DNA from: Phycisphaerales bacterium | Lineage (GTDB): Bacteria; Planctomycetota; Phycisphaerae; Phycisphaerales; SM1A02 | Length of the DNA: 64,000 bases | Direction: 5' to 3' | Assembly: GCA_029245245.1 (NCBI GenBank) | Contig: JAQWPT010000011.1 | Coordinates: 1-64,000 of the forward strand | Shown: piece by piece, positions 38,813 to 44,004 of the stretch | How the letters are laid out: the number at the start of each line of letters is the position of its first letter | How positions within the stretch are numbered: position 1 is the first letter of the stretch | Notes under the pieces: generated by a model | The model's input: the letters and a program-made list of their open reading frames with translations, nothing else | Databases searched by the model: none | What the model was told of the DNA's origin: nothing | Program-made: the position numbers and the translations under genes

Positions 38813-38880
38813 CCCACCATGTTACATCGCGTTGCTGGCCTGCATCTGGTACAAGATTGGACATGCAGGGGACTTCTTCC

Positions 38881-39852
38881 ATGCCTGACCTGGCCCTGAT
38901 CATCGTTGGCGGCCCTGCCATGGACCCGGTCGAACTGGACCTGGAAAAACCACGGACGGCAGGCCGTTCCAGCAGTTGCGACGTCGTGTTCGACGATCCG
39001 AGCATCTCGAGGGTGCACGTCGAATTCGGCAAAGATGCCGCCGGGATCTTCATCACCGACATGGAGAGCCGTGGGGGCGTCTTCCTGAACCGTGTTCGCC
39101 TGGAGGCGGGGCAGCAGGAGCATCTCTCGAACCGTGACCTCCTGGTCATGGGGCCCTGGAGCATGTTGGTTCGGCTGGCATCCGATGCAACCCCGGAGCC
39201 GGCTCTCGAGGACACCGAGTCACCCACGGAGGTGCCGGAGGCCCAGGAGGATTCGTCACGGGAAGACGCGATGTATGCGACCCGGGCAAGCATCTTCATG
39301 CGACTGCGGGCAGACGGTACGCTCGACCGTGAGGTGGGCTGGAACGAGTTCGCCGAGAAGTACTCCCGGGTAATCGCGGGATTCGCGAGAAATGCCGGGC
39401 TGCGGTCGCAGGATGCCGACGACGTCCTCCAGGACGTGCTCATGGGATTCTTCCGCGTATCCGCGGACTTCGCCTACGATCCGGCAAAGGGACGATTTCG
39501 CGGCTACCTCAAGCGGGTGACGCTCAACGCCATCCGGTCGCGCCACCGCCGGCGCCGGCCGGACCTGAACCTGGATCCGGACTGGGAGCTCCCGGCGATG
39601 GATCAGTCCACCGATGCGATCTGGGATCGCCAGTGGACGGAGCAACTGCTCAACCGGGCCATGGACCAGGTGCGTGAGAGCGTCGAAGATCGGACCTGGA
39701 AGGCGTTCGAACTCTATGGAATGCGTGGTACCGCAGTCGATGCGGTGGCGGACGACACCGGCATGACCGCGGAGGCCATCCGCCACGCGAAGATGCGGAT
39801 CACGAAGCAGATCCGTGAGATCGTCAACCGGCTCCGCGAAGAGGAAGGCTGA
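38881..39852 (+). CDS. ECF-type sigma factor fused to an N-terminal FHA domain
   Basis: The 323-residue protein joins two signalling modules. Residues 5-98 form an FHA phosphothreonine-binding domain with G-R (28-29), S-x-S-R-x-H (41-46) and the later N-R strand (70-71). An acidic Pro/Ser/Thr/Glu linker (101-130) follows. Residues 155-225 carry sigma region 2 with D-A-D-D-V-L-Q-D-V-L (178-187), and 255-318 carry region 4 with a helix-turn-helix. A reasonable reading is that a Ser/Thr kinase controls the sigma factor through the FHA domain. The ATG at 38881 is preferred because AGGGGA lies eight bases upstream; TTG 38857 and ATG 38863 are alternatives. No kinase or anti-sigma gene is adjacent. 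Confidence 0.88.
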   Translation: MPDLALIIVGGPAMDPVELDLEKPRTAGRSSSCDVVFDDPSISRVHVEFGKDAAGIFITDMESRGGVFLNRVRLEAGQQEHLSNRDLLVMGPWSMLVRLASDATPEPALEDTESPTEVPEAQEDSSREDAMYATRASIFMRLRADGTLDREVGWNEFAEKYSRVIAGFARNAGLRSQDADDVLQDVLMGFFRVSADFAYDPAKGRFRGYLKRVTLNAIRSRHRRRRPDLNLDPDWELPAMDQSTDAIWDRQWTEQLLNRAMDQVRESVEDRTWKAFELYGMRGTAVDAVADDTGMTAEAIRHAKMRITKQIREIVNRLREEEG

Positions 39853-41933: not shown

Positions 41934-43067
41934 CTAGTGCAGGCGGCGATCACTTGTCTCGATGCGGGTGCGTCGCAGGAAGTCCGCGTACTCGGTGCCA
42001 CCGGTCCCCATGGCCTGGGACGGGGCGGGCGCCTGTTTCGTGATGTAGCGAATCGTGATCTCCTGGTGGGTTCTGCGGAACCGGACCAGTTGCTCGATGC
42101 AGGCGTCGTAGCGGGATGCGAGACCTCCATCGTGTTCAACGATGTCTCGAAGCGACGCTCCCTTCTCAAGCCACTGGAGAAAGGCGCGATGCCGTGGAGG
42201 CATGTAGTGGCGCATCGCCTGCAGAAACGGACGGGTTCGCGGGTGGTCGTGGGGAACGTCGAGGCCTGCATCCAACGCGTTCAGCAGCGAGGACTGGGCG
42301 GCACTGCCTCCGTGCAGGGTGATCGGGTCATGCTCGAGTCCCTCGTACACGATGCCCGGTTCAGGCCAACCACTGAGAAACGGACGGATTCGATGGTAGA
42401 AGACGTCGTGTCGGCATCGTTCTTCCATGCGGACCAGCACGGTCGTCATGGCATCGATCGTGGACGCGATTGTTTCCAGGTCCGAACCCACGTGGTCGTG
42501 GTCGTGCGCATCCAGTTGCAATCGAATCCGGGCCAGGGCCGGCAACGCCGCCGCGCCGGTGGCCTCGATCTCCGCCGTCAGCAGGTAGAACCACTCCTCG
42601 TCGGGTCCGCCTCGAAAGCACTGGAGGGTTCGAAGATTCTCGGCGGCAATGGGTCCGGTCGCATCGATGCGTCGCCAGTTGTGCAGCACGATCGAAGCGT
42701 GCGAGATGATCATCGGTCGGTCAAGGCGTGCAGCCACGTCGTTCCAGGGGAGGCACAGGCAGGCCGGGAGCCGGGTTGCGATTTCACTCCGGCTGAAGAC
42801 GAAGGCGTTGCCGAAGACCGACAGCAGCAGCATGGCACGCCGAAGTTCCTGTTCCGATCCAAGACTCGACGCATCCAGTGTCGGTAGATTGCCGATGGCC
42901 TGCCGCGCGGTGCGGGTGGCGATCATTTCCGGAAGGTCGAATCCCAACTGTTCCCAGGCCAGCCAGGGCTGGGGAAGTCGGACCAGTGGGTCTTCCGGCG
43001 GGAGGAATCCGCGCAGGGGATCCACGTCGAAGCGAGCCAGTTCCTGTGTGATGCGATCCTCGATCAT
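41934..43067 (-). CDS. indoleamine 2,3-dioxygenase-type haem protein
   Basis: The 377-residue protein matches the IDO branch of the tryptophan dioxygenase superfamily. These haem enzymes open the indole ring of tryptophan to N-formylkynurenine. Diagnostic segments are L-P-W-N-D-V-A-A-R-L-D-R-P, S-H-A-S-I-V-L-H-N-W-R-R near residue 128, F-R-G-G-P-D-E-E-W-F, G-S-A-A-Q-S-S, R-H-Y-M-P-P-R-H-R and F-R-R-T-H with the probable proximal haem His. The C-terminal M-G-T-G-G-T motif is present. No other kynurenine-pathway gene is near. The ATG at 43067 gives a natural start; the upstream frame is unlikely. Confidence 0.88.
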   Translation of the reverse strand: MIEDRITQELARFDVDPLRGFLPPEDPLVRLPQPWLAWEQLGFDLPEMIATRTARQAIGNLPTLDASSLGSEQELRRAMLLLSVFGNAFVFSRSEIATRLPACLCLPWNDVAARLDRPMIISHASIVLHNWRRIDATGPIAAENLRTLQCFRGGPDEEWFYLLTAEIEATGAAALPALARIRLQLDAHDHDHVGSDLETIASTIDAMTTVLVRMEERCRHDVFYHRIRPFLSGWPEPGIVYEGLEHDPITLHGGSAAQSSLLNALDAGLDVPHDHPRTRPFLQAMRHYMPPRHRAFLQWLEKGASLRDIVEHDGGLASRYDACIEQLVRFRRTHQEITIRYITKQAPAPSQAMGTGGTEYADFLRRTRIETSDRRLH

Positions 43068-43086
43068 GGTGGAATCCAACCTGGTG

Positions 43087-44004
43087 TCAGGATACCGAAG
43101 TCGATCTGTCGGGCAGGAACGAACGACGAGTTCCCCGGTGTGCCTGGCACACCAGTACGGCAACAAGCATCAGTCCGCACCCGACGAGTTGAATGCTCGT
43201 GAGGCGATCGTCAAGGATCAGGTATCCCGCGACGGCTGCGAAGACGGCTTCCAGGCTCAGCAGCATCGCGGTGTGAGCAGGCGGTGCGCTCCGTTGGCCG
43301 ATGATCTGGAAGGTGAAGGCAACGGATGTCGCCATCACCGCGCTGTAGAGGAGGTACCAGCGGGCGGCCCAGATTGGTTCCATGGCAATGCCTTCCATGA
43401 TCAGTGCCGCCACCATGCAGACGACGGCGGCGACTCCGGTCTGGATGATGGCCAGGCGGATCGGATCCGATTTCCTGGTGGCCCAGCCGATGACGAGCAC
43501 CTGGAAGGCCCAGGCGAACGTGCCAAGCAGCACCAGAAGGTCACCGATGGACACCTTGGAAAGGTCATAGATGCTCAGCAGGTACAGGCCGACCGTGGCC
43601 AGCAGGATCCCCATCCAGGTGCGAGGAAGGATTCGATAGCCGACCGCCAGGCCCAGGACGGGAACCAGGACCACGTAGATGCTCGTGATGAAACCGGCGT
43701 TGCTGGCGGTGGTGGATTCAATGCCGATCTGCTGCAGCAGGCCACCAGCGGCAATGCCCAGTCCCGCAAGAACTCCACCCAGCAGCAGTGCCTTGGAAGA
43801 AGATCCGCCTCGCACCGCCTCCGCCTTACGCGTCTTGATCAGCAGCAACGGCAACAGGGCGATGGTCGCAACCAGGAACCGGATGCCGGTGTAGGCGTAG
43901 GGCCCGATGAACTCCATCCCCGCCTTCTGCGCAACGAATCCCACGCCCCAGATGATTGCGGCCAGCAGGAGCAGAGCATCGGCACGCAATGTGGCAAATT
44001 TCAT
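43087..44004 (-). CDS. EamA/DMT-family transporter
   Basis: The 305-residue protein has ten predicted membrane segments in two five-helix EamA repeats. The first starts L-L-L-L-A-A-I-I-W-G-V-G-F near residue 12; the second ends with the typical E-A-V-F-A-A-V-A-G-Y-L-I-L-D-D-R-L near residue 260. Such drug/metabolite exporters often export amino acids or related compounds, but the substrate cannot be told. It is divergent from the TauE-like permease, 49 bases apart, so a shared control region is likely. Confidence 0.9.
   Translation of the reverse strand: MKFATLRADALLLLAAIIWGVGFVAQKAGMEFIGPYAYTGIRFLVATIALLPLLLIKTRKAEAVRGGSSSKALLLGGVLAGLGIAAGGLLQQIGIESTTASNAGFITSIYVVLVPVLGLAVGYRILPRTWMGILLATVGLYLLSIYDLSKVSIGDLLVLLGTFAWAFQVLVIGWATRKSDPIRLAIIQTGVAAVVCMVAALIMEGIAMEPIWAARWYLLYSAVMATSVAFTFQIIGQRSAPPAHTAMLLSLEAVFAAVAGYLILDDRLTSIQLVGCGLMLVAVLVCQAHRGTRRSFLPDRSTSVS

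Follow-up and report, generated by a model that had tools for sequence, protein, structure and literature searches.

An FHA domain fused to an ECF sigma factor in Phycisphaerae and its probable coupling to Hanks-type Ser/Thr kinases

ECF sigma factors linked to Ser/Thr kinases are already known (PMC8999054). Groups ECF43, ECF59, ECF61, ECF62, ECF217, and ECF283 have a Ser/Thr kinase encoded nearby and no anti-sigma gene, and the members given as examples for ECF59, 61, 62, and 217 come from planctomycetes (PMC8999054). Many planctomycete ECF sigma factors have a kinase next door and no anti-sigma gene, and the route of phosphorylation is known only for ECF43 (PMC8999054). In the sigma2.2 region of ECF43 proteins, a phosphorylatable threonine within QTTA or STTA replaces the acidic motif (PMC8999054), and phosphorylation of threonine there switches the sigma factor on (PMC8999054, PMC13147305). 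Some ECF sigma factors carry fused extensions, and the known ones are C-terminal SnoaL-like, TPR-like, or WD40 domains (PMC8999054, with part of this being general knowledge).

Transcription regulators bearing FHA domains are also known. EmbR needs its FHA domain both to interact with PknH, which is encoded in the same operon, and to be phosphorylated by it (PMC9239209). A keyword search of the open literature returned no published FHA-ECF fusion; the main ECF reclassification paper lies outside the literature covered, and an earlier notice there is possible. Within the literature searched, the FHA-ECF fusion described here is a new combination.

Domain layout of the fusion and its upstream elements

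The gene is a single unbroken open reading frame (ORF) at 38881 to 39852 (+) of the window, the whole 64-kb stretch of DNA analyzed, with its ATG at 38881 and its stop codon ending at 39852. Based on the ORF call, Pfam and NCBIfam matches, and its relatives, it encodes a 323-amino-acid FHA-ECF sigma fusion, whose parts all lie on the same strand. The FHA domain comprises residues 5 to 98 (38893 to 39174), with a Pfam match at residues 26 to 91 (E 2.3e-14), G-R at residues 28 and 29, and S-I-S-R-V-H at 41 to 46. After an acidic linker of low identity at residues 99 to 130 (39175 to 39270), sigma region 2 occupies residues 150 to 226 (39328 to 39558), where Pfam Sigma70_r2 matched residues 158 to 226 (E 3.1e-10), and sigma region 4 occupies residues 257 to 322 (39649 to 39846). 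No Pfam r4 match was reported for region 4 of the fusion protein. The region is instead included in the NCBIfam match to TIGR02937 (sigma70-ECF), which spans residues 154 to 313 with 60 bits against a cutoff of 42.9, and it falls among model helices at residues 242 to 322. With this match above the cutoff and these helices, the protein has the ECF layout of sigma2 plus sigma4 and no sigma3. When solved structures were searched by sequence, the FHA half matched Dun1, GarA, and OdhI, and the sigma half matched CnrH and SigE.

An AlphaFold model of the protein, built from an alignment of 60 fusions, has a confident FHA sandwich (pLDDT of about 90 or more), the helices of sigma2 and sigma4, and a disordered linker (pLDDT 42 to 50, near 45 overall), in which stretches 102 to 109 and 113 to 129 fall below 50. 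The profile match and the beta-sandwich fold both place the N-terminal domain in the FHA family (PF00498). Its nearest folds by VIA-align were the FHA domain of DgcB (Z 17.5), GarA (17.1), the FHA domain of EmbR (16.9), and OdhI (16.9). The FHA domains of DgcB, GarA, and OdhI bind their own phosphorylated tails. A first-pass annotation made from the sequence alone had proposed an FHA fold with G-R and S-x-S-R-x-H motifs at residues 5 to 98, joined by an acidic linker to an ECF sigma factor; profile matches, motif residues, model, and fold comparisons all agree with that description. It had also suggested modeling the FHA-sigma interface, and here the outcome was partial: the domains were modeled, but no fixed contact between them appeared (pTM 0.45), and the model does not set their relative placement.

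Upstream of the gene, AGGGGA lies 8 bases before the ATG and is a plausible ribosome-binding site. The 11-bp sequence CTGGTACAAGA at 38846 to 38856 (+) was perfectly conserved in an alignment of the six nearest relatives, while the flanking sequence differed. It resembles an extended -10 promoter element (TG-n-TACAAG), its presumed function, and TATGAT, TATCAT, or TACAAT-like elements occur at similar places in other clades. We rejected an ECF-type autoregulatory promoter, as the only elements in the upstream alignments were -10-like and of the housekeeping type.

Conservation of the fusion and of its predicted phosphothreonine site

In a search of 61 relatives, full-length fusions at 35 to 73% identity were found in about a dozen genomes, ruling out a fusion created by chance or by assembly. 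A scan of 84,980 species genomes returned 79 loci, mostly fusions, nearly all in metagenome-assembled genomes (MAGs) of Phycisphaerae or other Planctomycetota. This survey covered relatives of the window's sigma family, and 63 distinct FHA-sigma ORFs were recovered, all from Planctomycetota and nearly all from Phycisphaerae MAGs. Among the matches listed from 397 class genomes and 392 phylum genomes, full-length ones occurred only in the window's own family. The first-pass annotation had called for a search for this domain order in other genomes and had allowed that the fusion might be an artifact, with the domains encoded separately in relatives. The fusion is conserved, and we saw no relative with two separately encoded domains; two rows that seemed to lack an FHA domain end at contig ends (L110 and L120; locus numbers are our own), and a third locus, L035, is broken. 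The latter (L035:8674-9695) is an FHA-sigma locus interrupted by stops or frameshifts, through decay or assembly error, and it adjoins a dCMP deaminase gene as the window's fusion does. At another locus (L122:8896-9810), the sigma domain groups with FHA-less relatives and the FHA domain with a GspE-type FHA domain, so that it is possibly an independent fusion, given weak support and long branches.

The predicted phosphothreonine-binding site spans residues G28 to N70 (38962 to 39090). In the alignment of 60 fusions, where mean identity across the FHA domain is 38%, G28, R29, S43, R44, H46, D60, S63, and G66 are invariant and N70 is present in 56. The window belongs to a clade of 22 rows without linked kinases, in which FHA identity averages 48%, pairwise linker identity 22%, and mean identity of sigma region 2 86%. 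Despite the divergence of FHA domain and linker, G28, R29, S43, R44, H46, S63, G66, and N70 are each present in 22/22 of these sequences, and selection thus appears to keep the phosphothreonine site in the kinase-less clade.

A paralogous ECF sigma factor in the window's own genome (L034:7717-8640, contig C8, at about 15.7 to 16.6 kb) begins with a region similar to the last part of an FHA domain. In this paralogue G-R, S-R-x-H, and a Pfam FHA match are all absent, and there is a kinase gene at a distance of about 1 kb; judged by its sequence, it may be a degenerate FHA-sigma. Could the window's FHA domain itself be a relict, or purely structural, leaving an orphan sigma factor controlled by its own expression alone? 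The loss of kinase adjacency in the window clade, the sigma70-like extended -10 element, and the missing FHA motif residues of the paralogue would fit such a view, but eight site residues held at 22/22 while the remaining FHA domain drifts make it very improbable.

One position tempers confidence in ligand binding. The asparagine of S-x-N-G, which follows position 64, is common in FHA domains, and we take it to be the equivalent of Rad53 N107. In the window this residue is Gly65, most of the window clade has Gly or Ala, and just 2 of the 60 fusions have Asn, so peptide binding may be altered. The residue is semi-conserved and is no requirement for FHA membership, and its replacement bears solely on the certainty of ligand binding.

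The sigma half also retains its acidic sigma2.2 motif, DADD, at D178 to D181 (39412 to 39423). D181 is present in 60/60 fusions and D180 in 54, with Glu in 5 others. With D-A-D-D kept, the sigma factor can probably engage RNA polymerase and might not need phosphorylation to be active; activation through sigma2.2 phosphorylation, as in ECF43, was rejected on the same grounds. We infer that any control would work through tethering, masking, or a second phosphosite.

Kinase linkage and a proposed mode of control

The window's fusion is flanked by genes for aspartate decarboxylase, dCMP deaminase, and DUF6807/3-keto-disaccharide hydrolase. As first noted from the sequence, no anti-sigma gene is adjacent to it, and a local HMM search found no kinase genes in the whole window. 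The syntenic set (aspartate decarboxylase, dCMP deaminase, DUF6807, IDO, EamA, and TauE) is common to close relatives only. Also in the window, at 41934 to 43166 (-), is an indoleamine 2,3-dioxygenase family protein (Pfam E 6e-100), of a family mainly known from eukaryotes.

Kinases are frequent beside the relatives. A Hanks-type kinase ORF lies within 500 bp in 24 of the 63 distinct fusions and within 3.5 kb in 31, related loci in this count not being independent, against a chance expectation of about 0.02 kinases per locus (our own estimate, from 13 kinases in the 2.69-Mb own genome). Three main arrangements occur: the kinase gene directly precedes the fusion in the same direction, 3 to 47 bp away (L083 to L094 and L026), is divergent from it (L028 and L098 to L106), or directly follows it in the same direction (second copies in L069 and L075, and L116). 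These differences argue against one frozen locus. The second copies are divergent FHA-sigma genes (L069:13259-14227 and L075:12832-14187) located about 3 to 4 kb downstream of a window-type fusion, directly preceding a kinase gene of about 1,100 amino acids. Among the nearest FHA-less relatives, 18/21 have a kinase within 3.5 kb, and paralogues in the window's own genome lie beside kinases at C10:47 kb, C10:154 kb, and C8:16 kb. Each of the 15 kinases inspected carries HRD and DFG motifs. A single hydrophobic, transmembrane-like stretch follows the kinase domain, and TPR repeats are present in many of the proteins.

The window, like nearly all members of its subclade, lacks an adjacent kinase. 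A tree of sigma domains, with moderate support (SH-aLRT 94) and some long-branched rows, groups nearly all fusions on the same side; there, the window's kinase-less clade neighbors a kinase-operon clade. The simplest reading, at that moderate level of support, is that the ancestor was kinase linked and that the linkage was later lost, making the window lineage an orphaned branch with a perfect FHA site. We also asked whether one of the 13 kinases of the own genome stands out as the cognate partner; a kinase tree gave no clear candidate or orthologue.

We favor, with a probability of about 60%, a mode of control like that of EmbR and PknH, in which the FHA domain would dock the sigma factor on a phosphothreonine of a membrane Hanks-type Ser/Thr kinase or its substrate. 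The N-terminal FHA domain would bind phosphothreonine on the autophosphorylated kinase, or on a protein that the kinase has phosphorylated, and this binding would recruit the sigma factor to the kinase or hold it there. Access of sigma to RNA polymerase would thereby depend on how active the kinase is, in a way similar to the coupling of EmbR to PknH through the FHA domain of EmbR. Ancestral and sister lineages would have the kinase gene next to the fusion; in the window lineage, where the pair would have split, the partner kinase would have to be encoded elsewhere and act in trans. This docking is suggested by seven phosphosite residues that are invariant in 60 fusions at 38% FHA identity, by kinases adjoining fusions, FHA-less sisters, and several own-genome paralogues, by the lack of an anti-sigma gene next to the window's fusion, and by an FHA fold close to those of EmbR, GarA, OdhI, and DgcB, together with the EmbR-PknH precedent. 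Against it stand the missing adjoining kinase in the window and nearly all its subclade, the lack of a clear orthologue in the kinase tree, the replaced S-x-N-G asparagine, and the intact sigma2.2 motif, with which sigma may be active in unphosphorylated form.

A bolder and rather unlikely reading is that a Hanks kinase phosphorylates the fusion itself, and that binding of FHA to phosphothreonine, either on its own linker (in cis) or on another sigma molecule (in trans), directly opens or closes sigma to RNA polymerase without an anti-sigma factor. If true, this one-protein phospho-switch would add a new way of controlling ECF sigma factors, in a lineage whose kinases are scattered.

The first-pass annotation had named the linker as a potential phosphorylation target. 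The candidate is T112 (39214 to 39216, +), a clade-specific threonine in an acidic context that is conserved in 6/6 nearest sequences. The motif EP[SAG]L[ED]xT[ED]xP is common to the window, L021, L022, L023, L064, and L065, and the rest of the linker is unconserved. Other clades have their own conserved linker threonine, as in D[DE][VI]PTLVRT (L098-type clade) or EETH[IV]AP, and the linker alignment contained none in clades L029/L121, L030/L115/L117, and L077/L082. The proposal thus has partial support, confined to single clades, and the linker threonine as a universal target was rejected. By analogy with OdhI, GarA, and DgcB, the switch could be intramolecular: a kinase would phosphorylate T112, the protein's own FHA domain would bind it, and the accessibility of sigma would change. 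The motif in the six nearest sequences, the linker threonines of other clades, and the closeness of the FHA fold to DgcB, GarA, and OdhI are consistent with such a switch. However, clades without a conserved linker threonine could not share it as a mechanism, and the model resolved no FHA-sigma contact; we therefore consider it unlikely.

The FHA ligand could also be a third phosphorylated protein rather than the kinase, such as an unlinked inhibitor or a regulator that is dephosphorylated by an FHA-GAF-SpoIIE phosphatase. The most similar FHA domain in the own genome is on such a phosphatase (E 1.6e-29 versus 8e-20 for the next), and the window clade has no linked kinase. This reading seems quite unlikely, as the gene that recurs beside the fusions is a kinase and no conserved third gene was seen alongside them across clades. 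The phosphatase is encoded at L036:8137-9897 (contig C30), and many relatives have ORFs of similar length with FHA matches; by sequence similarity, it is a possible source of the fusion's FHA domain or a possible pathway partner. The own genome also encodes FHA domains fused to a type II/IV secretion ATPase (L181:4808-6553) and to a histidine kinase (L172:3429-5153), so FHA domains serve several signaling outputs there.

To return to docking on a kinase or its substrate, the occurrence of the fusion in dozens of relatives, often beside a membrane Ser/Thr kinase gene, makes it probable that the fusion reads phosphorylation by the kinase and turns genes on or off accordingly. This agrees with the tie to Ser/Thr kinase signaling first proposed from the sequence, now joined by Hanks kinases beside the relatives' fusions and invariant FHA phosphosite residues. 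It suggests that an FHA domain can serve as the connection between two pillars of bacterial signaling, Hanks kinases and ECF sigma factors. With a phosphothreonine reader fused to sigma, often adjoining a kinase gene, the route of phosphorylation to the sigma factor becomes directly testable.

Comparison with known systems

The fusion resembles the kinase-linked ECF groups in the Ser/Thr kinase near its relatives' genes and the absent anti-sigma gene; it differs in its FHA domain, which is unmentioned for those groups in PMC8999054. The adjacent kinase that characterizes them is absent from the window copy but present in relatives of the same sigma clade. It is not ECF43-like by mechanism, since it keeps D-A-D-D. 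As in ECF sigma factors with fused extensions, a fused domain takes the place of an anti-sigma factor, but here it is an N-terminal FHA domain, whereas the known extensions are C-terminal.

GarA, OdhI, and Bdellovibrio DgcB have the nearest FHA folds and share the placement of a bacterial FHA domain beside a phosphorylatable tail. There, enzymes are regulated, whereas the output here is a sigma factor and the linker threonine is conserved within clades only. Like EmbR of Mycobacterium tuberculosis, the fusion is an FHA-bearing transcription regulator with a kinase gene alongside, in the window's relatives, and the FHA folds are alike. EmbR, however, belongs to the SARP/OmpR-type activators and not to the sigma factors, its FHA domain is C-terminal, and its kinase gene is alongside; the fusion joins an N-terminal FHA domain to an ECF sigma factor, and its window copy stands apart from any adjacent kinase.
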